A stretch of DNA of 32,836 bases from Candidatus Woesearchaeota archaeon (GTDB lineage: Archaea; Nanobdellota; Nanobdellia; Woesearchaeales; WJIZ01), in contig JAAOYF010000044.1 of NCBI GenBank assembly GCA_018221205.1, positions 1 to 32,836 of the forward strand, read 5' to 3'. The notes under the pieces were generated by a model, which did no database searches, was not told the DNA's origin, and saw nothing but the letters and a program-made list of their open reading frames with translations. The position numbers were made by a program, and so were the translations under genes. Below are positions 8,858 to 26,457 of this stretch, piece after piece. Numbering within the stretch: position 1 is the stretch's first letter; each line of letters starts with the position of its first letter.

Positions 8858-9760
8858 ATGGTAAAAACAGTATTCCAAAGAATTACTGAGAAAAAGAAAG
8901 AACTAGACTCTTTAAGGCCTCTTGAAGAGTCACAAATAAGTAAATTAATAGAAGAAAATGACATAGATTACATCTATAATTCTGTTTCAATAGAGGGAAA
9001 TACTTTAACATTAAATGAAACCAGATTTATTTTAGAAAAAGGAATTACTATCGGAGGTAAGAATCTAAGAGAACATCTTGATGTTACCAATCAAAAAGAA
9101 GCCATGACTTGGATTAGAGAACAAATTAAAAAGAAAATCACAGAAGCAGATATTTTAATCCTTCATAGAATAACTCTTAAAGGCATTTCAGATTACTGGG
9201 CAGGGAAGTATAAGACATCTCAAAATAGAATATTGGGTTCTAAATTAAAAACAACTCTCCCTCATAAGGTTCAAAGTGAAATGCACAACTTAGTGCAATT
9301 TATGCAAAAACCAAAAGGAACTATCGTTGATATTGTAGTATTTGTTCACCATGAGTTAGTTAGAATTCATCCATTTGTTGATGGGAATGGAAGAGTAGCC
9401 AGACTACTTGTAAATCTTGTTCTCATTAAAAATGGATATCCTCCAATAATAATTAAGAATCAAGATAGGAAAAGATATTTTGATAGCCTAGAAAAAGCAC
9501 ATTTTGGAAATATGGGGCCATTTAGATTTTTTATGGCATTGGCAGTTGAGTCATCATTAAACATGTATCTGAATGCTCTTAAGTCAACTAATAAAAAAAA
9601 TGAAATGTTGTCATTAAATGACTTATCAAAAGAAGTTGAATTTTCTCAAGAGTACCTTAGTCTGCTTGCGAGAATTGGAAAATTGAGTGCAACAAAAATA
9701 AATGGAGTATGGCATTCTACCAGAAAAGACCTAAATGAATATATGGATTCTCGAAATTAG
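8858..9760 (+). CDS. Fic/DOC family protein (predicted AMP transferase) with C-terminal HTH-like region
   Basis: Fic motif HPFVDGNGRVAR; N-terminal inhibitory-type motif SVSIEGN; C-terminal LNDLSKEVEFSQEYLSLLARIGKLSATKING. Confidence 0.92.
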   Translation: MVKTVFQRITEKKKELDSLRPLEESQISKLIEENDIDYIYNSVSIEGNTLTLNETRFILEKGITIGGKNLREHLDVTNQKEAMTWIREQIKKKITEADILILHRITLKGISDYWAGKYKTSQNRILGSKLKTTLPHKVQSEMHNLVQFMQKPKGTIVDIVVFVHHELVRIHPFVDGNGRVARLLVNLVLIKNGYPPIIIKNQDRKRYFDSLEKAHFGNMGPFRFFMALAVESSLNMYLNALKSTNKKNEMLSLNDLSKEVEFSQEYLSLLARIGKLSATKINGVWHSTRKDLNEYMDSRN

Positions 9761-12113: not shown

Positions 12114-13001
12114 ATGAAAAACAGCAGAGCTATGGTGTTAGGGAGCTTTATCGGAGATGCATTAGCTTTAGGCCCTCACTGGATCTATGATGTAGAAGAA
12201 TTGCATGACAAGTTTGGAGTTGTGGATGGCTTTACAGATCCTCCTAATGATTCATATCATCCTAACAAGAAAAAAGGAGGATTCACCCATTACGGAGATC
12301 AGACATTCATCCTTCTGGAGTCTTTGGCAAAGATGGGAAAATTTGATCTGCAAGACTATCTCTTCAGATGGCAGAGATTATTCACCCAGTATAATGACTA
12401 TCTTGATCATGCCACCAAAGATACGATGGAGCACATCGAAAAGGGAGTTAAACCCTCTGGTTCAGGATCTGAAGATATAAGTGCTGTCGGCAGGATTGCG
12501 CCGTTGCTGTACCTATATGAAGGGGATGATATGATCCTGACAGGGGTGAGAGAACTGATAGAGATGACCCACAACAATCCTTTAGTCATCGATACTGCCT
12601 TGTTCTTCGCTAAAGTCACTTCTCGAGTATTACATGGGAAAAGGCCTGTAGAGACGATCAAGAAAGTTATGGAGACTGCTCCAAAAACTGTCAAGGTGTT
12701 GATGCAAAAAGGCCTTGACTCTGCCCAGAAGAATTCAATCGAGGCCATCAATCATTTCCGAGCTGGCTGTTCTACAAGTATGGCATTGCCAGGGGTGATA
12801 CATCTGATCGCGAAATATGAGGATAGTCTCAAGGATGCATTAGTCAACAGTGTGATGGCTGGCGGCGACAATGCAGCCAGGGCAGCTGTTGTAGGCATGG
12901 TCTTGGGAGCTCATTTAGGAGAAAAGGCCATTCCGCGAGAATGGATCTCTGGATTACAGAAAAGAAAAGAAATAGAATCGTTATTGGATAAACTAAATTA
13001 A
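12114..13001 (+). CDS. ADP-ribosylglycohydrolase (ARH/DraG/J1-crystallin-like) family protein
   Basis: GSFIGDALALGPHW at N-terminus, HYGDQT, GGDNAARAAVVGMVLGAHLG at C-terminus. Confidence 0.85.
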   Translation: MKNSRAMVLGSFIGDALALGPHWIYDVEELHDKFGVVDGFTDPPNDSYHPNKKKGGFTHYGDQTFILLESLAKMGKFDLQDYLFRWQRLFTQYNDYLDHATKDTMEHIEKGVKPSGSGSEDISAVGRIAPLLYLYEGDDMILTGVRELIEMTHNNPLVIDTALFFAKVTSRVLHGKRPVETIKKVMETAPKTVKVLMQKGLDSAQKNSIEAINHFRAGCSTSMALPGVIHLIAKYEDSLKDALVNSVMAGGDNAARAAVVGMVLGAHLGEKAIPREWISGLQKRKEIESLLDKLN

Positions 13002-13172
13002 TTCTCCAATATCGACTTCGTCTTCTGCTATCTGATCAAGCTCTTCAGTTGTCTCTTCCATAGCGCCTTCAGTCTCTTCTATGGTTTCCTGGGTTTCATC
13101 TACAACCTGGCTTGGACCGCATGCAGTCAGTACGACCGCAAGGATCAGCAATAATGCGATTAGCTGTTTCAT
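12993..13172 (-). CDS. Small acidic lipoprotein (59 aa; not in the supplied ORF track)
   Basis: MKQLIALLLILAVVLTACGPSQVVDETQETIEETEGAMEETTEELDQIAEDEVDIGELI; lipobox LTAC-G; ATGA overlap with upstream gene. Confidence 0.75.
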   Translation of the reverse strand: MKQLIALLLILAVVLTACGPSQVVDETQETIEETEGAMEETTEELDQIAEDEVDIGELI

Positions 13173-14773
13173 GAGTCATCCTCCTCATCATTTTCATCGT
13201 CATTGATCTCGACACTTTTCTCAAGCACCCTGGCTTCTATGCGTTCCCTGATTTCAATCTGCTTTCCTTCAGCTGTCTCGATCCGGACCTCTCTTCTTAG
13301 CTCATTTGTGTCACGGATGTTTTTCACTCGTGCCTCGAAGGCCTTTATCCTGCTTCTCGCGACTTCTGGTGCAATATCGGGTGTTATCTCCTTGAATTCC
13401 TTGCTGAGCTCCTCGATCTTAGCTAATAGGTCAGAGACATCTTCGCCTTCTGCTTTCTTTGCTCGCACTTCTCTTTTTAATTCAGCGATATCTTTGGCGA
13501 GCTCTTTCTTGATCTCGTAGTTATCGGTTACTTGTTCCCTTCGTTCTTCGAACCTTTCCTTGGCTTCGTCCCATCTCTGCTTGATCTCTTCAACTTTTTC
13601 CTGAGACAACTCACCATCTTGGTACTTTTCCTTGAATTTCTCCATTACCTTGATCTTTGCAGCGAGGTCTGCCAAATCTGCCCCATCTTTCTTGAGCGCT
13701 TTGGCTTTTCTCTTGAAGTCATTTAGCTGTCTGGTGAACTGGGCATTGTTATGCTTGATTCTCAGCTCTAGCTCAGTTTCTTCAACTTCATCAGAGTCTT
13801 CGTGCTTGGCATCCTTGATCCTTGCTCGTAGCTCACCGCGTTCACCTTCTGGAACTAAATTATGCACTTCATCCTTGAATGCCTTGATGATTCTCCGAGC
13901 TTCCTGGATGGCAGCTTCAAATTCCTCCTGAGTCATGGTCTGCGGATCTATACCTTCTCTGAATGCTTTTAATTCAGCAAAAATCTCTTCTAGCGTAGTT
14001 GTATCCTTTTCTAATGCTTTAATCCTTTCAATTAAGATAGCAGCTTGTGCTTCATGCCGTAGTATCTTCTTCAAGAGTTGATAGGCTCTGACCATGTGGC
14101 CTCTTGGAGCATCGGTTACAGGCTCTTCCTCACCGATCTCATCTTCATCATCAACTTCCTCTTCTGTCTTATCAAGGAATTTTCCTCTTGCGTCATTTGC
14201 AAGATCCTTCGCTTCCTCAGCAAGGGCCTCTGCTTCTTCATAATTGCCAGCATCGAATGCTTCTTGAGCTTGGGCAAGGAAATCTTTGGCTTCTTCTAGT
14301 TTCTCCTTAGAAAGCTCGACCTCTTTACCGTCTGCCTCAGCTTCAGCAATCTCTTCCTCTGCCTTGGCTATCTCCTTTTCAGCATCCTCAATCTCCTTAG
14401 CAGCATCTTCAGTAAGATCCTCTTCATCTTCCTCATCAGTCTCATCTTCGAGGTCTTCACATTCTCCTGCATCGCAGAACTTATCTGCATCACAGTCAGT
14501 GTCTTCTACGCACTCAACTTCATCTTCCTCATCAGTCTCATCTTCTTCATCTGTTTCGTCTTCGTCATCAGAGTCATCTAAAACACACTCTGAAGGTAAT
14601 GGACATCCATCATCATCCAAACTGACATCATCATCCAATTCATATCCTTCCTCGCATTCTACAACAGTATATGTTGGACAATCATCATTAATTTCGTCAC
14701 TTTCAGCTATTGCCACTGCGGAAAAGAGCAGCAAAAAACACATCAATATCGTAAACAGTTGCTTCATTTTCAT
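13169..14773 (-). CDS. Secreted, highly acidic coiled-coil protein with N-terminal Cys motif
   Basis: Signal peptide MKMKQLFTILMCFLLLFSAVAIA; DEEDETDEEDE runs; long Glu/Lys/Ala helical regions. Confidence 0.8.
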   Translation of the reverse strand: MKMKQLFTILMCFLLLFSAVAIAESDEINDDCPTYTVVECEEGYELDDDVSLDDDGCPLPSECVLDDSDDEDETDEEDETDEEDEVECVEDTDCDADKFCDAGECEDLEDETDEEDEEDLTEDAAKEIEDAEKEIAKAEEEIAEAEADGKEVELSKEKLEEAKDFLAQAQEAFDAGNYEEAEALAEEAKDLANDARGKFLDKTEEEVDDEDEIGEEEPVTDAPRGHMVRAYQLLKKILRHEAQAAILIERIKALEKDTTTLEEIFAELKAFREGIDPQTMTQEEFEAAIQEARRIIKAFKDEVHNLVPEGERGELRARIKDAKHEDSDEVEETELELRIKHNNAQFTRQLNDFKRKAKALKKDGADLADLAAKIKVMEKFKEKYQDGELSQEKVEEIKQRWDEAKERFEERREQVTDNYEIKKELAKDIAELKREVRAKKAEGEDVSDLLAKIEELSKEFKEITPDIAPEVARSRIKAFEARVKNIRDTNELRREVRIETAEGKQIEIRERIEARVLEKSVEINDDENDEEDDS

Positions 14774-17468: not shown

Positions 17469-18812
17469 TTAAGGCCAAGTGGAGTTAATCAGCTTTCCCA
17501 CCTGATCCACGATGGTTGCATTGGTGGCATTCTGCAGCTGCAGGACATAGAGCGCGGGAGAGATGTTAAAGAGCCCACTTAACGTAGATTCTCCTGCAGA
17601 GACGTAATTGAACGCCCATCGTTTATTGTTATAGACTGCAAACTTATCAAAGACACCACTGAATTCATCTCCATTGAGATTCTTTGCAGAGACCTTCTGG
17701 CTGTCATAGATAGTTGCAGATCCTCCTATTTCGCTTCTTATGATGCCAAGCTCAATGGAATAATCTCCATCAGATTCGGAAGCACCCCCTATCTGCATGA
17801 GCAGTGCGCCTGAAGAGCTGCTCAGATTCTCTATTCCTGTTGAGGACTTGCATCCTATGTAGACATTATGCTGGCCTGGCGTCGGCAGCTCATCAGCCGG
17901 ATCGAGAGTGCAGGTATGGCTTGTCGTTCCTTGTCCTGAACATGTCCCGTTTCGTGCAGCGCCCATATCAGTGTAGTTCAGATTTTCATCCCCCATTCTA
18001 CACCAGGCGTTGATATCAGAAGAAAATGTGAAAGTGGGTGTGGTGTCTAAGGTATAATAGGGCGATTCGTTGTCACCGCCACAGGAAGTGCAAGTGAATC
18101 CAGAAAGGATTGGCGGATTGTTACCAGTAAAAGGCCTGTCTTCTGTGCTCACCCAGAAATCATCTATATAATAATGGAAATTGTCACGCGGGTAGAAGTC
18201 TATCGTGCTGAATGCGATCGTACCGTACCCTGAAAAAGTATAACAAAGTTCACCATCTTGATAAAAGAGCGCATCATTTTCTGTGATATTAAAGGTCATG
18301 TTCTTCCATGCGGAAGCAGTGAACGTATCTGCAGAACAGGAATATGCCCCGGCATCATCGGCAGGGCGCCAGTCTTGGCCTGTTGGACCGTATATCCCTA
18401 TATAGGACCCATTCGCAGCATTTAGTCGTATTGATATATATTTAGATGCCGATGTAGCCATTATACTCCAATGGGCAACACCCTTGAAGATGGAACTGTT
18501 GAGATTAGCCTTTATGTACTGTCCCTTCGAAGATGCTCCAGGATAGATATCAATGCTCTTATTATGCCTATAGACAGTGCCAGTCGTATAGGTTGCCGTT
18601 CCTTCATCAAGCGTGTATATCCATCCATAGTCATCAAGATGCTCTCCATTCGATGGTGTTGAGCTGTTCAATGCCGCATCGCCATCCAATCCGTCAGTGA
18701 CATAGTACTGGCCGTTGAAGTGATAGTCTTCCAGGTCATAAGAGAAGTCAAGAGCAATGCTGAAGGAGCTGAGCACTATCACTAAACAAGCAAAGAGGAG
18801 TGTTCGTTTCAT
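17469..18812 (-). CDS. Secreted protein with LamG/concanavalin-like N-terminal region and Cys-containing Ig-like region
   Basis: Signal peptide MKRTLLFACLVIVLSSFSIA; FYQDGELCYTF...YIDDFWVSTEDRP; last gene of surface operon. Confidence 0.65.
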   Translation of the reverse strand: MKRTLLFACLVIVLSSFSIALDFSYDLEDYHFNGQYYVTDGLDGDAALNSSTPSNGEHLDDYGWIYTLDEGTATYTTGTVYRHNKSIDIYPGASSKGQYIKANLNSSIFKGVAHWSIMATSASKYISIRLNAANGSYIGIYGPTGQDWRPADDAGAYSCSADTFTASAWKNMTFNITENDALFYQDGELCYTFSGYGTIAFSTIDFYPRDNFHYYIDDFWVSTEDRPFTGNNPPILSGFTCTSCGGDNESPYYTLDTTPTFTFSSDINAWCRMGDENLNYTDMGAARNGTCSGQGTTSHTCTLDPADELPTPGQHNVYIGCKSSTGIENLSSSSGALLMQIGGASESDGDYSIELGIIRSEIGGSATIYDSQKVSAKNLNGDEFSGVFDKFAVYNNKRWAFNYVSAGESTLSGLFNISPALYVLQLQNATNATIVDQVGKLINSTWP

Positions 18813-19402
18813 TTTAGCTCCTCCACTTCCAGCTTTTCCAGGAAGAAGCTTTCATCTTCTTCAGTGAACTCATACTGAGAATTCTTCACAAGCCTCGTCA
18901 CACCCTCTTTTGTTATCCTGAACTGGATGCACGACTCTCCCGGCTTGCATATGCCGTTGTTGTCGCCATCATATTTTGAATCGCAGGTTATGATTGCTGC
19001 TTCTCCATCTGCTTCATAGCTGCATTTCCCCCAATCTCCATAGTTAAGATTGTAATTCTTTATCGATACATCCTCAACGCTGATTGCAAACTCTTTCTCT
19101 TTACATTCTTCCCTGCTTTTCTGGACCGTATTTGTTCCCGTCCTGCAGGTGTAGGTGTAGTTCTTATCTTGCATGGAACACGACTTGTTCAATGGCTCGT
19201 CGTCGCATATTGGTATCTCGGCACTGGCGATACACGTGCCATATATTGGCTGTTCCTCCTGCCAGGTTAACGTTTTGCATTCCTTCTTCTCTTCCAAGCT
19301 TATATCCTGGGTTACCTCTACTTTGGATGTTTTCATGGCGCTATAGACCACTAGCGATGCAATCGCCAAGACAGCAACAATGATTACAATGTTTTTTTTC
19401 AT
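18809..19402 (-). CDS. Membrane-anchored/secreted Cys-containing hypothetical protein
   Basis: N-terminal TM KNIVIIVAVLAIASLVVYSAM followed by multiple Cys; 4-nt overlap with downstream gene. Confidence 0.65.
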   Translation of the reverse strand: MKKNIVIIVAVLAIASLVVYSAMKTSKVEVTQDISLEEKKECKTLTWQEEQPIYGTCIASAEIPICDDEPLNKSCSMQDKNYTYTCRTGTNTVQKSREECKEKEFAISVEDVSIKNYNLNYGDWGKCSYEADGEAAIITCDSKYDGDNNGICKPGESCIQFRITKEGVTRLVKNSQYEFTEEDESFFLEKLEVEELK

Positions 19403-19416
19403 GTTATCACCTTGTT

Positions 19417-21753
19417 TTATGGTACCATAATAGTTATATTGGTTGAGTCTGATAAGGTGCCGTTGAAGGCAGTGGCATTAATGCCAAAGGTTCCTCCGGT
19501 GCTGAAGTTATGCTTGGCATAGACAAACGCAGTCTCATTCGGCCCCAAAGCGAATATGGTTGAGCTGTTGATAAGGCCGTCGCTGGTATCGATTGTCCAG
19601 GAGACATTGGAAAGATTGATGGTGAGGGTGTTGGTGATGTAAAATTCGAAGATTGTCTCCCTGTCAGTGAGGTTAAGGAGCTGAAGGTCGCTTGCCTGAA
19701 TATCTAGGAGTTCGATAGGCAGGATCCAGGTGTCAAGATACAGACCGTTTGTTGTAGAGAAATTCACCTTGTAATCCCCTGTCTGAGAGTAACCATGCTC
19801 CGTGTAGATGAAGGCAGTCTCATTCGGTGCAAGGGAAAGGAGATTATCAGCACTTGCAACCTGCCCATCACCTGTATTGATGCTCCAGTTGATGCCAGTC
19901 AGATTCGAGAAGGCGTTGTCATTCCTGATCTTGGCTTCAAAAACAACGTTCTTGTTCACTGTTGAAATAAGCTCGAAAGAGTCTATCTGCAGATCGCCCA
20001 CATGCACTTGTAGGGTCTTATTAGCACTAAGATTATTCCCGAAAGCATAGACAATCGCCTCAAAAGAGCCTATTGAGGAGTAATTATGTTGCACATACAC
20101 GAAGAGATCCTCTCCGGCAGTTAGATTTACTGGAGTAGTGTTGTTAAGTGAATTGCCATCCCCGAGATCAATGGTCCAGTTTATGTTGTCTAAAATAACT
20201 TGTCCATTATTTTTTATGATGAATTCAAACACTCTCTCGAAATCATTAGCATAGATCTTGCTGAAAGAGGAAACGGTTAATGAAGGAAGTGCCTCTTTCG
20301 CATTGGTGACTATATTGTTTGATTCATCAGCCTCATCAACGAAATTGTCGAAGTCAACGATGGCTGTGAAGAGTGACTCATTTATCGTCTCTTCTGCATT
20401 GAATGAGAACGTCTTGGACTCATTGACGTCGAGGAAGGAGACAGAGGACTGGTTTTCATAGCTTGCATTGTCAAACACATCAACGAAGATGTTGAAAGCA
20501 GGCGCTTCTCCTGTGTTGTTGATAACAATGCTGACATTCGTGACGTTCGTGGTTTCGTTAAAGGTTGTGTTAATGCTGATGATGAGATCAGGTAATGGGG
20601 ACCGCTCAAAATCAGTGTAATATGTAATATTTGTCGTATGGGCATCAAAGACAATGTCCTTTGTTTGATTTCCTATAGACAGTTTGGCAAATGAAAGGAT
20701 AAATTCCCCGTTGTAATAAGTTGAATAGATATCTTTTCCTTCTATTTCTATATCTACAATTTGCAATCCTGTACTGAGAGTCTCGTTTTTAGCGAGAGAT
20801 GCGATAAAGTTGTTGTCAAGATCATAGAGGGCAGCTTCTAGAGTATAATCATCAGCAGATTTTACATTGATAGTAAAATTAAATCTGAAAATATCAGAGA
20901 GGTTGTTTGAGTTGTTGTCTATTTGACTGCTTTCGATTGACTTGATGTAGGAGGTTTTAGCAAAATCTTCATAGTTGTAGGAGAAAGTGTTATGCGAGAA
21001 TTCTATGATTTTATTCCCAATTTGAACACTTTCAACACTTAATGTGCCATTAAAATGAGTTGACTTTATCGTTTCATTATCAAAATCAATGGAGACAACC
21101 TGAGCCGGACTTGAAAGTGTTGTTTCCTTTGTAGCAGAGATAATAGAATCATTATATTCCAGATTTACTGAAATATTCACTGTTTCGTTCTTTGTCACGT
21201 CTAAAGATACATTAATCCTGATAAGAGCATTGTTCACATTTTCATCAGACAGAGCAGTTATATTCGTTCCCGTTTCATAATCTGCATAAGTCGAGGTATT
21301 GTATTTTCTGCTTTCATAGACGATCTGCCCGATTTCATTATAGATTCGCGCGTAATACGCATATTGGGACTGCGAGAGGAAAAAAGTGCTGATATTCATG
21401 ATAAAAGACGGATTTGTAGAGGAAATACTCCTCGTGTCAGAGACAATAGGCAGATCTTCATCTTCAAAGAAGATGTTGGCCGTAAAATTCGCTGATGTGC
21501 TATAATCCGTTGTTAGGTTGAAGATAATGGTATCATTCTGGCCATTTGAATCAGAGTCAACGATGGTATCTGCAAAAGAGGTTATATTAATCGTCCCATC
21601 ATAGAATGATGTGTCAAGATTCGAAACATAATCTTCGAGAGTGAGAGCAGACGCAAATGATATTGCTAGAATGAAAATTAGCAAAGCTATACCTCCCTCA
21701 GTGTATTTATTAGGTAGGTTCAATGGATTCTCTTTCCTAATCTTTGTACTCAT
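19417..21753 (-). CDS. Large secreted CARDB/Ig-like repeat surface protein rich in N-glycosylation sequons
   Basis: Signal/TM GGIALLIFILAISFASA; CARDB-like PDLIISINTTFNETTNVTNVSIVINNTGEAPAFNIFVDVFDN; three C-terminal repeats with WTIDxxDG...PNETAFVYxxH. Confidence 0.75.
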   Translation of the reverse strand: MSTKIRKENPLNLPNKYTEGGIALLIFILAISFASALTLEDYVSNLDTSFYDGTINITSFADTIVDSDSNGQNDTIIFNLTTDYSTSANFTANIFFEDEDLPIVSDTRSISSTNPSFIMNISTFFLSQSQYAYYARIYNEIGQIVYESRKYNTSTYADYETGTNITALSDENVNNALIRINVSLDVTKNETVNISVNLEYNDSIISATKETTLSSPAQVVSIDFDNETIKSTHFNGTLSVESVQIGNKIIEFSHNTFSYNYEDFAKTSYIKSIESSQIDNNSNNLSDIFRFNFTINVKSADDYTLEAALYDLDNNFIASLAKNETLSTGLQIVDIEIEGKDIYSTYYNGEFILSFAKLSIGNQTKDIVFDAHTTNITYYTDFERSPLPDLIISINTTFNETTNVTNVSIVINNTGEAPAFNIFVDVFDNASYENQSSVSFLDVNESKTFSFNAEETINESLFTAIVDFDNFVDEADESNNIVTNAKEALPSLTVSSFSKIYANDFERVFEFIIKNNGQVILDNINWTIDLGDGNSLNNTTPVNLTAGEDLFVYVQHNYSSIGSFEAIVYAFGNNLSANKTLQVHVGDLQIDSFELISTVNKNVVFEAKIRNDNAFSNLTGINWSINTGDGQVASADNLLSLAPNETAFIYTEHGYSQTGDYKVNFSTTNGLYLDTWILPIELLDIQASDLQLLNLTDRETIFEFYITNTLTINLSNVSWTIDTSDGLINSSTIFALGPNETAFVYAKHNFSTGGTFGINATAFNGTLSDSTNITIMVP

Positions 21754-21757
21754 TGTT

Positions 21758-22252
21758 TTATCCCCAACTTATTACAAAAAGATAAAATCCAAAAAATGTT
21801 GAAAAAATAAAAGTGATTATCAATAACAAAAGATAATATGCGACAGATGTTAATAGCATTTTTTTGTATGATCTTTTTTTATCTGTTAAATGGGATTTAT
21901 CAACAATAAAGTTAATAAAAACCGAGACAATAAAAGCAAGAAGAATAACAATGCTAATCGAATTGGATACCAAAATTCTATTTAAAGCTCCCATATGTAA
22001 AGCGAGGATAATAACAAACAAGAAAATAGAGGAACGCAAAAGTCCAGATGTAACTTTATCTCGATCATAAATTCTAAAATATATTTTTAAAATAAAATAC
22101 ATTAGAAGTGCATATAAAACAATGAAAAATATGAAAATCTTAAATATTTTAAAAGAATCAAAAATACGAGAATTCCAAACATAGCTAAAAGTTGTTACAA
22201 AAGTAAGAACGTATGACATTACAAATATATAGATAATTTTTAATCCCCTCAT
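21758..22252 (-). CDS. Small polytopic membrane protein (about 4-5 TM)
   Basis: Repeated long hydrophobic stretches; ATGA-type overlap with preceding gene, 4 nt from next. Confidence 0.65.
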   Translation of the reverse strand: MRGLKIIYIFVMSYVLTFVTTFSYVWNSRIFDSFKIFKIFIFFIVLYALLMYFILKIYFRIYDRDKVTSGLLRSSIFLFVIILALHMGALNRILVSNSISIVILLAFIVSVFINFIVDKSHLTDKKRSYKKMLLTSVAYYLLLLIITFIFSTFFGFYLFVISWG

Positions 22253-25200
22253 TTTAACGCCTCCTTGACAGCAGAAATCACAGACTCATCTGAGATTAAA
22301 GCTACATGATTTATACCATAATTGATAAGATCCCACCAGTTACTTGTTATATTAGTCCCTGTTCCATAGCCAACTGAATCTAGAATTCTAGACTGGTCCT
22401 CTGCTCCCAATACTTTGTCATCAGGCTTTCCATTAAATAGGTAGAGTTCGCTTACATTTACGTTGCTGAGGTCAATTGAGGAGCTTTCATTTATTGCGAG
22501 CTCATTATAAAAATTCATCAAATTAGAAGAAATCTTTCCATCGTCCGGAAAAAAGTTTCCAATCGGATTCAGATATTTTGCGTAATCTTTCAAATTTAGG
22601 TGATACTTCTCATTTTTGCTTAACTGTTGCATCGCATAATCTCCTGCAATTTCTGCAATAATATGAGATGTTCTTCCTGCAGCAACAAGGGGACCTCTTG
22701 CTAGTGTAGTGAATAAAGTATCATCATTCAATGTAACAGGAATAGCAACACCCACGAAAATATCTATAGGATTTGCTTTTAAGTCCGCTGATTCATATTG
22801 GCCATTTGTCAGGTTAAAGAAATACCCGGCATCGCTCTTCCCGTTCGGATAATTGTGTAAAGAGCTTAAAGCCACCCTGCCTCCATTGGAATGACTGACA
22901 TAATCCATCGAATCTTTCCCTGTGTAGATTTGGACTCCACCTATTAATGCTGGCCAATAGTAATCGACTTGATCGTAATAAGTATAATTAGGGCATAGTT
23001 CACATTCTGTTGTGGGGCCACCACTCATTTCAATCTCCCAGACATCCCTTCCTTCATCAGCCAATTCTCGTGCCAATCCGTCATTGTTTTCCCAAGACAC
23101 TAGATTACTGAAAATTCCTCCGCTGAAAGTTACTGGTTTATCACTTTCTGAAATTGCGTCCTTAAAATCCTCACTGTAATCTGCATTCACATTTTTCAAT
23201 CGGAGAATAGTTTCTTCGCCGTAACTCGTTTCATTCAAGGTTTTCACTGTCCTGATAGCAACATCAAAAATATTGTCAAAAAGTATTTTGTTCACAACTG
23301 ACAAATACGCTGAAGAATTCTTCGCTACATTTCTAGGGAGTAAATTGTCAATCCCCAGGCCTAACCTATCGTAATCATCAAGAAATAAAGGATTCAAATA
23401 CGGAGAATCAAGATCAGAAAACATATTAGCCCGAGCTGAGATTAACTTTTTTATTGCAGCGATATCACCGTCTACATCAATTCCATATGCAAGAATCAAG
23501 GGTTTATTTTGAGTTACGTGAAGTGTTCTTCCTACTATTCCTGCATAACTTTTTTGTGCACGACGACCATAGCCAACTATCCTACTATTTTCATACCCCC
23601 AGATAGTGTACTGCACAGGCTTACCATCAATAATTAATGTATTCTGATTGTAATTTTTAAATTCACTTGTAAATCTCCCAACAGAAATTACTAATTCAGC
23701 CTCTCCTTCTGAAACCGAATCCACGTACTGTTCCAGGAAACCCTCAATCAATGAGTTAACATTAAGGTATGACGTGTTTATTGACAGATAGACCCTTGGC
23801 ACATTTTGAGATACAAGACGATAGACGAAATTATCGCTCTTTGACTCGTTGAACGCTCCAGCTTCGTCAATATAGACATTCAACGCAGAAGCGGAATTGA
23901 GATCCCAAGTCGTTGTCCCAGAAGCAGTCGAAAAGGAATCAATTGAAAGAAGCAAACTCTTTGTATCATCGATTAGACCCGTATCTCTATTCACTCTATG
24001 CAAGGATACGTTAACCGTACCATTAAGATCAGAAGAATGAATAGTAACATTAATCGTACTTCCCTTTACTGACACATCTTCATTAGTAAGCCAAAAGTTA
24101 GGATCTGCATCACAAGTTTTGATACAGTTTGAATCAACTACTGTGACAGTCTCCCCGTCATTGTTGACATAAACAGTTTCCGAATGGCAGAGTGTCTGGT
24201 TGTTGGAACAGATGACACTAACATTTATTCCGTTTCCGCAAACATTGGAAACTTCTTTCTGAATGAATTGTGAAACATCGGTTTGTCCTTCATGCACGCT
24301 ATTGACTTCAACATTCAAGTCGCTATTCGAGGTAACGATATTTAGCGTTCCATTGCATACTTCTCCTTGCGTTGCACTACATACTCCCCCCACGCAGAAA
24401 TGGCCTGTTAAGCAGTCATCATCTACTGAACATGAAAATCCGTCTTTTGTCCGGCAAACATCATTAGCGCCGCCATCACTTGTCTCGTATTGGTAGCTTT
24501 CATCGGTGACCACTACTCCTGCACGATAAGGATCACATTGCTCACTTGAATCACAACTTAAGTCTTGAACATTTATCCAAAAATTGGAGTTGAATCTTCC
24601 TCTGACTCGCCATGTTGAATTTGTAAGACAGGATGAATTAAGTGCATCAATTATATATAAGCTATCATAGTCATCATCATCCTCATTGCCTGCATCCCCA
24701 CAATCCCAGAAAGCTATTACTCCAAAATACCTTTTTGTACTGTCGTCAAGGAGACTATTCGGATAGTCATGAGAATCTTCCACCCCTGTATCGCTACAGT
24801 CTGAAGGGTTAGAATCACAGAAATCTGCTAGGTCCCCATCCCCACTTGAACAAGCGCCAATGCTTCCGGTTCCGTTCCCCCAACATTTATCGAACTCGAA
24901 TGGGATTACGTAAGTATCAGAGGAATCAAATGAATAGCATGCAACTTGAAGTTCATCTTCTACACATTCATCACATTCAAAATCAACATCACCATCTACC
25001 CAGACTACCCCATCTCCTGCATTTCCATAGTTTGTGTAATCGTCCTCAGCATCCAAATGGATTTCTGTGAACAAGAAAACAATAGAACCGCTCTCGCCAA
25101 CGTAAATCGTTTGGTTTATGATCTCTTCAAGGTATTTTACAATCTGGTAGTATCCTTCCATGAACTCTACATCGTCAATCGTTCCTGTCCCATTCAGCCA

Positions 25201-26457
25201 GAAATGGAGCGTCTGGTTCTCTGTGCCGTAGTCAGTGATGTTGAAGATTTCATAGGGATAGGAAGCATTTCCAAGCGAAAAATCAGTTGATGTAAGGTTA
25301 ATCCTTACTAATCCATACCCGTACTCATCATCCTTCCCAGCAATTCCCAAATCAAGCGCATCATTCTGCAATTTTCCCCTTATTTGATCATTTGTCCAGC
25401 TTGAATTGTATGACCTCAATAAGCAGGCAACGCCAGCAACATGAGGCGCTGCAAATGACGTACCAGAAGAAACATTATAGGTATTATTCAAAAAAGTAGA
25501 ATTAATATCAACACCACCGGCAACTAATTCCAATTCACTTCCAGAGGAAGAAAATGGGGCTTTTTCAAGATTCTCATTAACGGCGCCAACAGCGATAACA
25601 TCGCTATATGCAGCAGGATATACTACACTGCCCCCGGTGTTCCCAGAAGCCGCAATCAAAACGATATCATTATCATACGCATCTTCCAGGACTTCCTTGA
25701 AGATCTGGGAATAGCCTTCCATGCCGAAGCTCATGGAAACGATGTCCATGTCATTCTCTATGGCCCATTCCAGGCCAGAGATGGCATCAGAAATCTTCCC
25801 GGTGGAGCCATTCGCTATCTTCACGGCATACAGTGAAACAGAGGGAGCAACACCTACAATACCTTCACCATCTAAAACAGCAGCCAGCACGCCAGCAATA
25901 AGGGTGCCATGGCCATAGGTATCACCATAATCCTCGCTCACGAACGAAACGCCTCCTGCTAGAGATAAATCGTCATGTGATGCAATGCCCGTATCAAGCA
26001 GGCCTACCTTAACGCCACTCCCATTCGTCGCATTCCAGGCGAGAGGAGCAAGAGTAAGGTTTACCCCATAAGGTATCTCACCAAGAACAGTAACATTCTG
26101 ATCTAATTCAATATACTCAATGTCCTTGTCCAGCAACAGCAGACTGACAGCCCCTGCCTCTCCTTCGATGCGGGCCAAGGCAAACCGCCCATACTCTTCC
26201 TTTATCGTGACATTCTTAAGTTCCTTCTTCACCTTATACTTAATGAGGTAATCTTCCTGTTCATCCTTCTTCACCTGTGCAAAATACTCTCTTGTCTTTT
26301 CATCCAGTTTTTCGGCATACAGCTCAGCACGGACATACACATCAACATCCTTCGGTGTGTAAATGAAATCAACCTCAGAACGGACAGAGAACAACATGAT
26401 AATCAGGACAAGAAGAAAAACTAACTGTTTAGATCGGCTTTTTTTAATGATTGACAC
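22249..26457 (-). CDS. Subtilisin-like (S8) serine protease with large extension, including C-terminal alpha/beta-hydrolase-like region
   Basis: S8 triad VGLLDTG, YGHGTLIAGV, SGTSFAAPHVAGVA plus oxyanion AASGNTGG; C-terminal DYVSHSNGGRVALSSL, NGKPDDKVLG, YGINHVALISD. Confidence 0.9.
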   Translation of the reverse strand: MSIIKKSRSKQLVFLLVLIIMLFSVRSEVDFIYTPKDVDVYVRAELYAEKLDEKTREYFAQVKKDEQEDYLIKYKVKKELKNVTIKEEYGRFALARIEGEAGAVSLLLLDKDIEYIELDQNVTVLGEIPYGVNLTLAPLAWNATNGSGVKVGLLDTGIASHDDLSLAGGVSFVSEDYGDTYGHGTLIAGVLAAVLDGEGIVGVAPSVSLYAVKIANGSTGKISDAISGLEWAIENDMDIVSMSFGMEGYSQIFKEVLEDAYDNDIVLIAASGNTGGSVVYPAAYSDVIAVGAVNENLEKAPFSSSGSELELVAGGVDINSTFLNNTYNVSSGTSFAAPHVAGVACLLRSYNSSWTNDQIRGKLQNDALDLGIAGKDDEYGYGLVRINLTSTDFSLGNASYPYEIFNITDYGTENQTLHFWLNGTGTIDDVEFMEGYYQIVKYLEEIINQTIYVGESGSIVFLFTEIHLDAEDDYTNYGNAGDGVVWVDGDVDFECDECVEDELQVACYSFDSSDTYVIPFEFDKCWGNGTGSIGACSSGDGDLADFCDSNPSDCSDTGVEDSHDYPNSLLDDSTKRYFGVIAFWDCGDAGNEDDDDYDSLYIIDALNSSCLTNSTWRVRGRFNSNFWINVQDLSCDSSEQCDPYRAGVVVTDESYQYETSDGGANDVCRTKDGFSCSVDDDCLTGHFCVGGVCSATQGEVCNGTLNIVTSNSDLNVEVNSVHEGQTDVSQFIQKEVSNVCGNGINVSVICSNNQTLCHSETVYVNNDGETVTVVDSNCIKTCDADPNFWLTNEDVSVKGSTINVTIHSSDLNGTVNVSLHRVNRDTGLIDDTKSLLLSIDSFSTASGTTTWDLNSASALNVYIDEAGAFNESKSDNFVYRLVSQNVPRVYLSINTSYLNVNSLIEGFLEQYVDSVSEGEAELVISVGRFTSEFKNYNQNTLIIDGKPVQYTIWGYENSRIVGYGRRAQKSYAGIVGRTLHVTQNKPLILAYGIDVDGDIAAIKKLISARANMFSDLDSPYLNPLFLDDYDRLGLGIDNLLPRNVAKNSSAYLSVVNKILFDNIFDVAIRTVKTLNETSYGEETILRLKNVNADYSEDFKDAISESDKPVTFSGGIFSNLVSWENNDGLARELADEGRDVWEIEMSGGPTTECELCPNYTYYDQVDYYWPALIGGVQIYTGKDSMDYVSHSNGGRVALSSLHNYPNGKSDAGYFFNLTNGQYESADLKANPIDIFVGVAIPVTLNDDTLFTTLARGPLVAAGRTSHIIAEIAGDYAMQQLSKNEKYHLNLKDYAKYLNPIGNFFPDDGKISSNLMNFYNELAINESSSIDLSNVNVSELYLFNGKPDDKVLGAEDQSRILDSVGYGTGTNITSNWWDLINYGINHVALISDESVISAVKEALK

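Follow-up and report, generated by a model that had tools for sequence, protein, structure and literature searches.

A subtilisin joined to a lipase-like hydrolase in a Woesearchaeales archaeon: a probable polymorphic toxin with a variable C-terminal half and a membrane-protein partner

Almost nothing is known of how ultra-small archaea, most of which are uncultured, attack rivals or recognize kin, and the locus presented here raises the question of what a single secreted protein carrying two catalytic regions does in an archaeon of this kind. The window, i.e., the whole stretch of 32,836 nucleotides that was analysed (contig JAAOYF010000044.1 of Candidatus Woesearchaeota archaeon, assembly GCA_018221205.1, from a genome of 1.28 Mb in 74 contigs), contains a gene for a protein of 1402 amino acids (aa), hereafter P0001, in which a subtilisin of peptidase family S8 is followed by a Cys-rich stalk and a predicted alpha/beta-hydrolase (ABH). 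A preliminary description had recognized the two catalytic regions without noticing that the C-terminal half is polymorphic, that relatives carry cassette arrays or that there is a membrane partner. Taken together, these features make it probable, at roughly 0.6, that P0001 is an archaeal lipase-like polymorphic toxin with a swappable C-terminal half and a membrane immunity partner, a reading that rests on sequence comparison. As a bifunctional enzyme alone the protein would be moderately interesting; it is more notable as a probable polymorphic toxin of DPANN archaea that has membrane partners and varies inside a single fold.

The hydrolase domain and its triad

The subtilisin and the second catalytic region were both found within a single open frame, as the preliminary description had claimed. 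For the second region, the Pfam profile Abhydrolase_1 matched P0001 below threshold (E 0.012, at best 15.8 bits against a cut-off of 25.8), and relatives from the same order were therefore collected and aligned (about 60 homologues, on which the triad counts are based). Abhydrolase_1 matched 39 of 61 family members at E<=0.1, with a best value of 8.3e-10. The motifs that had been pointed out, the nucleophile-elbow-like VSHSNGGRVALSSL (residues 1187-1200; 22858-22899), the acidic NGKPDDKVLG (residues 1342-1351; 22405-22434) and the late His in YGINHVALISD (residues 1380-1390; 22288-22320), are all present, and they supply S1190, D1347 and H1384 in the Ser-Asp-His order of lipases and esterases. 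A triad arising by chance was ruled out by the conservation of the three residues (counts in Table 1). The acid could be refined to the second Asp of PDD: D1346 was rejected because it is variable while D1347 is invariant, and D1354, near D1347, is also Asp in 58 of 58 homologues. One homologue (L063:482-1966) has Asp at the aligned nucleophile position (DDDH) and keeps the Asp and His; it may be inactive, differently acting or misaligned there.

Structure prediction and fold search of the C-terminus, proposed earlier as a check, agreed with these assignments. The AlphaFold2 (AF2) model of residues 865-1402 was confident (predicted local distance difference test, pLDDT, 87.8; predicted template modelling score, pTM, 0.82), and a Foldseek search with it gave 611 matches in the PDB at E<=0.001, with dog gastric lipase 1k8q (8.7e-12) at the top; all 50 of the matches listed are proteins of the alpha/beta-hydrolase fold. 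Triad placement was read from the secondary structure of the model, whose numbering is the residue number minus 864: S1190 lies between strand 320-325 and helix 327-338, D1347 after strand 473-477 (next-to-last core strand) and H1384 after strand 507-510 (last core strand). In the model, the three residues are thus placed at the canonical positions and in the canonical order of the fold. Searching the PDB with the family profile revealed lysosomal acid lipase 6v7n (3e-8), gastric lipases and the polyhydroxybutyrate (PHB) depolymerase PhaZ7 (1e-4), which are also the closest to the P0001 domain by profile and fold, although identity was just 15-17% in the top fold matches and P0001 itself stays under the Pfam cut-off. 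An alpha/beta-hydrolase fold of the lipase-like branch is therefore supported by the predicted structure, and the domain would presumably be a working hydrolase.

The same matches to digestive lipases and PhaZ7 would also suit a secreted scavenger, in which S8 digests proteins and ABH digests lipids or polyesters for nutrition, with the membrane protein serving uptake or anchoring. Both domains look active, and an archaeon with a small genome probably imports building blocks. The comparisons among relatives presented below make this explanation unlikely.

Variable hydrolase halves, membrane partners and cassettes

The stop codon of the P0001 gene overlaps the ATG of a gene for a 164-aa membrane protein. 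A small open reading frame (ORF) with at least two predicted membrane spans was found <=40 bp downstream of 45 of 52 ABH genes, compared with 6 of 146 control ORFs in the same loci (Fisher p 2e-30), and in 15 of those ABH genes the overlap is exactly 4 bp. Though ABH is a single family, the partners form 29 clusters. Pfam gave zero families above cut-off for ten membrane partners, and the search of 338 genomes for homologues of the 164-aa partner gave none that was credible, only composition-level matches, several of them across stop codons.

Comparison of related loci revealed that S8, the linker and the nucleophile half of ABH are 45-90% identical, while the rest of ABH is 16-35% identical and the partner at chance level. 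Two loci of one genus (L061 and L064) share 82-92% identity over S8 and 84-88% over CN, the conserved domain that precedes the hydrolase, but 16-26% after the nucleophile and 25% in the partner. Between L067 and L068, identity falls from 84-94% to 22% in adjoining 50-residue bins. Averaged over 10 loci, identity was 45% for the neighbouring CARDB protein, 52% for the N-terminal half of ABH, 27% for its C-terminal half and 27% for the partner, the last value being matched by shuffled partners (26%); the corresponding figures for L061 and L062 are 86, 80, 34, and 27%. Partner similarity tracked the C-terminal half of the hydrolase when the N-terminal half was held constant (partial r 0.24, p 0.0005), in contrast to its relation with the N-terminal half when the C-terminal half was held constant (partial r 0.02, p 0.35). 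Trees of the two halves rejected each other in the approximately unbiased (AU) test, the N-terminal half being short and the trees fast.

These data bear on two alternatives. A nutritional scavenger leaves unexplained the chance-level similarity of partners in loci that are otherwise 83-86% identical and the co-variation of the partner with the C-terminal half, uptake partners being normally conserved. An ordinary two-domain fusion with fast evolution, in which the lids of lipases and small membrane proteins change rapidly while duplicated tandem copies decay, would fit the known variation of lid regions in lipases and the frameshifted or truncated state of some copies (L050:10205-10939, L077 and L078); it is nevertheless very improbable given the abruptness of the drops between L067 and L068 and, beyond CN, between L061 and L064, the rejection of a single tree for both halves, the intact triads of truncated copies, and the presence of partners behind 45 of 52 ABH genes as opposed to 4% of controls.

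At least two ABH genes occur in ten loci, several of which are tandem arrays where most copies are followed by a partner, and the copies in multi-copy loci are mostly 5'-truncated cassettes with membrane partners of their own. In the maps below, the figure after TM is the length of the partner in aa. Locus L050 reads [CN-ABH] TM199 [CN'-ABH] TM138 [truncated] CARDB protein; L064 reads [S8-CN-ABH] TM96 [CN-ABH] TM108 [CN remnant] CARDB protein; and L060 reads [CN'-ABH] TM134 [ABH'] TM133 [ABH'] TM140 [ABH']. Standalone 5'-truncated cassettes lie beside a full gene in L050, L051, L054, L060, L062 and others. The N-terminal hydrophobic stretch is missing in 17 of 19 short ABH ORFs as compared to 4 of 38 long ones, and the orphans of L060 start within the hydrolase fold (profile position 70) with Ser, Asp and His retained. 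Such signal-less cassettes with intact triads are a further pattern that nutrition would not account for.

Copies within one array mostly share 70-100% identity over CN, falling as a rule to 12-40% in the C-terminal half. At the DNA level, CN forms direct repeats, with 70-84% identity for most copies, so homologous exchange would be possible. The search of 338 genomes with the CN domain gave ABH proteins or CN remnants, and other toxin domains were unrecognized, the remnants having been examined in part. Orphan CN remnants without a hydrolase stand directly upstream of the gene for the CARDB/PKD protein in L061:9105-10163, L026:10166-11152, L054:4610-5020, L064:5430-5765 and L062:4437-4784, as if marking the far end of a cassette array.

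The toxin reading and known systems

As far as sequence can tell, the genetic features of polymorphic toxins are largely present: the N-terminus is constant and the C-terminus exchanged among close relatives; standalone 5'-truncated cassettes occur in relatives, the window holding one copy; and a partner gene directly follows the hydrolase and co-varies with it, more weakly when the largest partner cluster is left out. We infer from these patterns the toxicity, the substrate and the immunity of the system. The constant front part would provide export, presentation and processing, and the cap, Asp and His of the C-terminal half would set the specificity of the hydrolase. This half and the overlapping membrane-protein gene would form one exchangeable unit; relatives may keep a reserve of such units in the form of silent 5'-truncated cassettes, which recombination at CN or within the nucleophile half would bring into place. 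The substrate of the hydrolase may be an envelope ester of a competing or partner cell. The producing cell would be protected by its own membrane protein (21758-22252), blocking the hydrolase that goes with it. S8 has probably a role in processing or target access: more speculatively, it could cut the Cys-rich stalk, thus freeing the hydrolase, or open the S-layer of the target. The wider proposal, a lipase-type polymorphic toxin-immunity system specific to DPANN archaea, with polymorphism inside one fold, polytopic membrane immunity and a subtilisin front in some members, is considered somewhat better than an even bet.

Several observations weigh against a polymorphic toxin. The window holds one ABH copy and zero cassette arrays, and the L054 pair is an exception to the general pattern, showing little difference in the C-terminal half. 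Divergence of this half could in part be due to fast evolution instead of swapping, and without the 13-member partner cluster the co-variation becomes marginal (0.08, p 0.054). Under the hydropathy rule, on which the counts of membrane spans depend, 7 of 52 ABH genes lack a partner. Most family members are without S8, which is therefore not essential to the system. We know of no earlier case in which a polytopic membrane protein confers immunity to a lipase. The ether lipids of archaea offer the hydrolase no ester substrate.

If P0001 is a polymorphic toxin as proposed, its closest counterparts by plan are bacterial (CDI, Rhs and MafB kinds), which like the ABH loci have a constant secreted front, an exchangeable C-terminal enzyme, and standalone cassettes in toxin-immunity order with one partner gene per cassette (PMC3482391). 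The survey of Zhang et al. (2012; PMC3482391) includes Tox-ABhydrolase-1 to -3 among lipid-acting or miscellaneous toxins and subtilisin among the processing proteases of Sec-exported toxins; it found immunity proteins to be nearly all cytoplasmic and most known immunity families to be absent from archaea. Known polymorphic toxins swap unrelated toxins at a domain border and rely on mostly cytoplasmic immunity, whereas the ABH family varies inside one catalytic fold, after the nucleophile, and its partners are polytopic membrane proteins in DPANN archaea. In Staphylococcus, a lipase toxin to which an immunity protein binds has been proven (TslA/TilA; PMC10730906). That type VII system, likened here by description, comprises an antibacterial lipase with a polymorphic toxin domain and variable adjacent immunity genes, but it differs in the export route and in its immunity protein, a lipase-binding lipoprotein as opposed to the multi-pass membrane protein of the ABH loci.

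The VARTIG proteins of Thermococcales (PMC8416519) offer another comparison, and with it another explanation: the variable hydrolase half and the partner might be matched surfaces for kin or host binding, serving self/non-self recognition or attachment with no killing. The plan is the same, a large secreted archaeal protein standing first, with a hypervariable C-terminus, followed by variable membrane proteins that go with the C-terminal subfamilies, as in the ABH loci; in addition, the CARDB/PKD and LamG-like neighbours of P0001 suggest adhesion. The VARTIG C-terminus is, however, an immunoglobulin (Ig) domain, and its authors saw no toxin domain (PMC8416519), while P0001 ends in an alpha/beta-hydrolase, and its family is an enzyme with a conserved triad that also has truncated cassettes and, in ten members, S8. 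The full triad is kept in the variable half and in orphan cassettes, which would be needless for pure recognition. This explanation is thus also unlikely, if slightly less so than nutrition.

Since the family offers an enzymatic candidate effector, a membrane partner matched to it one to one, and cassette arrays, the proposed toxin and immunity are open to direct testing by allele pairing. At the level of the protein, the family poses the question of an enzyme tolerating block replacement of cap, acid and histidine while keeping its nucleophile half. Among DPANN archaea, the SPEARE proteins of Nanohaloarchaeota are reportedly secreted and very large, combine adhesion modules with a serine protease, and have been linked to interaction with a host. 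They resemble P0001 by description only, and we know of no hydrolase cassette or partner gene in them.

Front ends, distribution and neighbouring genes

The subtilase occupies the N-terminal third, where the full S8 triad reported by the preliminary description was located at D155 in VGLLDTG (25987-26007), H183 in YGHGT (25903-25917) and S334 in SGTSFAAPHVAG (25432-25467). The profile PF00082 matched residues 146-382 over its full length and, with the Asp, His and Ser motifs lying within it, places P0001 in Peptidase S8 (subtilase); solved subtilisins matched down to the value of M-protease 1mpt (Table 1). Judged by these motifs, the domain is a complete, active-looking subtilase. Export would presumably follow the Sec route. 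Maturation of subtilases by propeptide cleavage is established, and the S8 domain of P0001 would mature likewise. The source genome encodes a second S8 protein (G000:C53; L025:480-3935) of 1151 aa, which looks unrelated and has a Gly-rich linker and a C-terminal membrane span; its comparison with every P0001 segment gave zero phmmer matches in the recorded search. The Cys-rich middle segment noted earlier was recovered as Cys residues distributed over positions 495-782, several of them invariant across 12 relatives, and the AF2 model of the stalk was modest, its pLDDT being too low for a structure search. CN precedes ABH in nearly all family members, and CARDB often stands ahead of CN.

Table 1. 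Features of the S8-ABH locus in the window, with the basis of each assignment.
Feature	Position	Strand	Basis
S8-stalk-ABH gene, secreted protein, 1402 aa (P0001)	22249..26457	(-)	GTG start; one open frame, zero internal stops
Signal-peptide-like N-terminus, residues 1-28 (KKSRSKQLVFLLVLIIMLFSV)	26374..26457	(-)	Inferred from sequence
Probable subtilase propeptide, residues 29-125	26083..26373	(-)	Inferred from position between signal and S8
S8 domain, residues 127-387, D155/H183/S334	25297..26079	(-)	PF00082 E 5.6e-50; PDB M-protease 1mpt E 3.7e-59
Cys-rich, beta-rich stalk, residues 388-865	23863..25296	(-)	Invariant Cys columns; AF2 pLDDT 67.8; relatives with CARDB at stalk end
Conserved pre-hydrolase domain "CN", residues 868-1105	23143..23856	(-)	Alignment; AF2 model; orphan cassettes usually start here
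Alpha/beta-hydrolase (ABH) domain, residues 1059-1402	22252..23283	(-)	Homologue alignment, profile, AF2, Foldseek
S1190, predicted nucleophile	22888..22890	(-)	Ser in 58/60; strand-loop-helix turn in model
D1347, predicted catalytic acid	22417..22419	(-)	Asp in 58/58
H1384, predicted catalytic His	22306..22308	(-)	His in 56/57
Hypervariable hydrolase half (cap, Asp, His), residues 1241-1402	22252..22737	(-)	Identity comparisons between relatives
164-aa protein, ~5 hydrophobic segments, predicted cognate immunity or partner	21758..22252	(-)	ATGA overlap with hydrolase gene
778-aa secreted CARDB/PKD protein, conserved neighbour	19417..21753	(-)	Pfam; homologues in 17 other loci
197-aa single-span protein, locus partner	18809..19402	(-)	Homologues adjoining S8-ABH genes in L018, L052, L061
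447-aa secreted protein (weak LamG match), locus partner	17469..18812	(-)	Homologues adjoining S8-ABH genes in L018, L052, L061, L064

The ABH family was found in 43 of 353 genomes of the order, and in a phylum-wide sample of 371 genomes its matches were confined to the same order. A motif-based scan of 84,980 species genomes revealed 36 loci with an alignment as query and no relatives with P0001 alone; the titles of the 36 loci name Woesearchaeota, Pacearchaeota, Nanoarchaeota/Nanoarchaeia/Nanoarchaeales or plainly an archaeon. No relative was found in viral contigs, by which a phage or viral origin was ruled out. As seen so far, the family is confined to Woesearchaeales-type archaea.

S8 and ABH occur together in 10 genes, P0001 included, and since the other nine are in other genomes, a fusion created by assembly was ruled out. 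The S8 motifs are intact in the genes inspected, with TGTS in L016 where the others have SGTS. In other family members, FG-GAP propellers, a NosD-type beta-helix or Cys-rich parts stand in place of S8 before the common CN-ABH module, and the subtilisin therefore appears to be one of several front ends. The closest relative of the P0001 hydrolase half (L049, G275:C62; 61% identity over the matched part) has no S8 and starts directly at the Cys-rich part, which indicates that front ends change quickly. Two loci, L077:191-4817 and L078:5350-8404, have an ABH gene that is broken inside CN into a pair of overlapping frames; the match in L078 (G165:C7) contains a TGA, which may reflect a frameshift, a sequencing error or a switched-off gene.

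Homologues of the CARDB/PKD protein usually lie just 3' of the ABH array and are 80-86% identical among close relatives. Because the conserved neighbours listed in Table 1 stand beside S8-ABH genes in relatives, the window appears to contain a system of five genes, in which there is a single hydrolase-partner pair and no additional cassette. Elsewhere in the window, a 534-aa signal-bearing protein (13169-14773) has an acidic linker and a long charged helical part, with no confident family match. A Fic-domain protein and an ADP-ribosylglycohydrolase are encoded at 8858-9760 and 12114-13001, respectively, and a MoxR-type AAA ATPase followed by a VWA protein at 519-2601, the last two genes overlapping.

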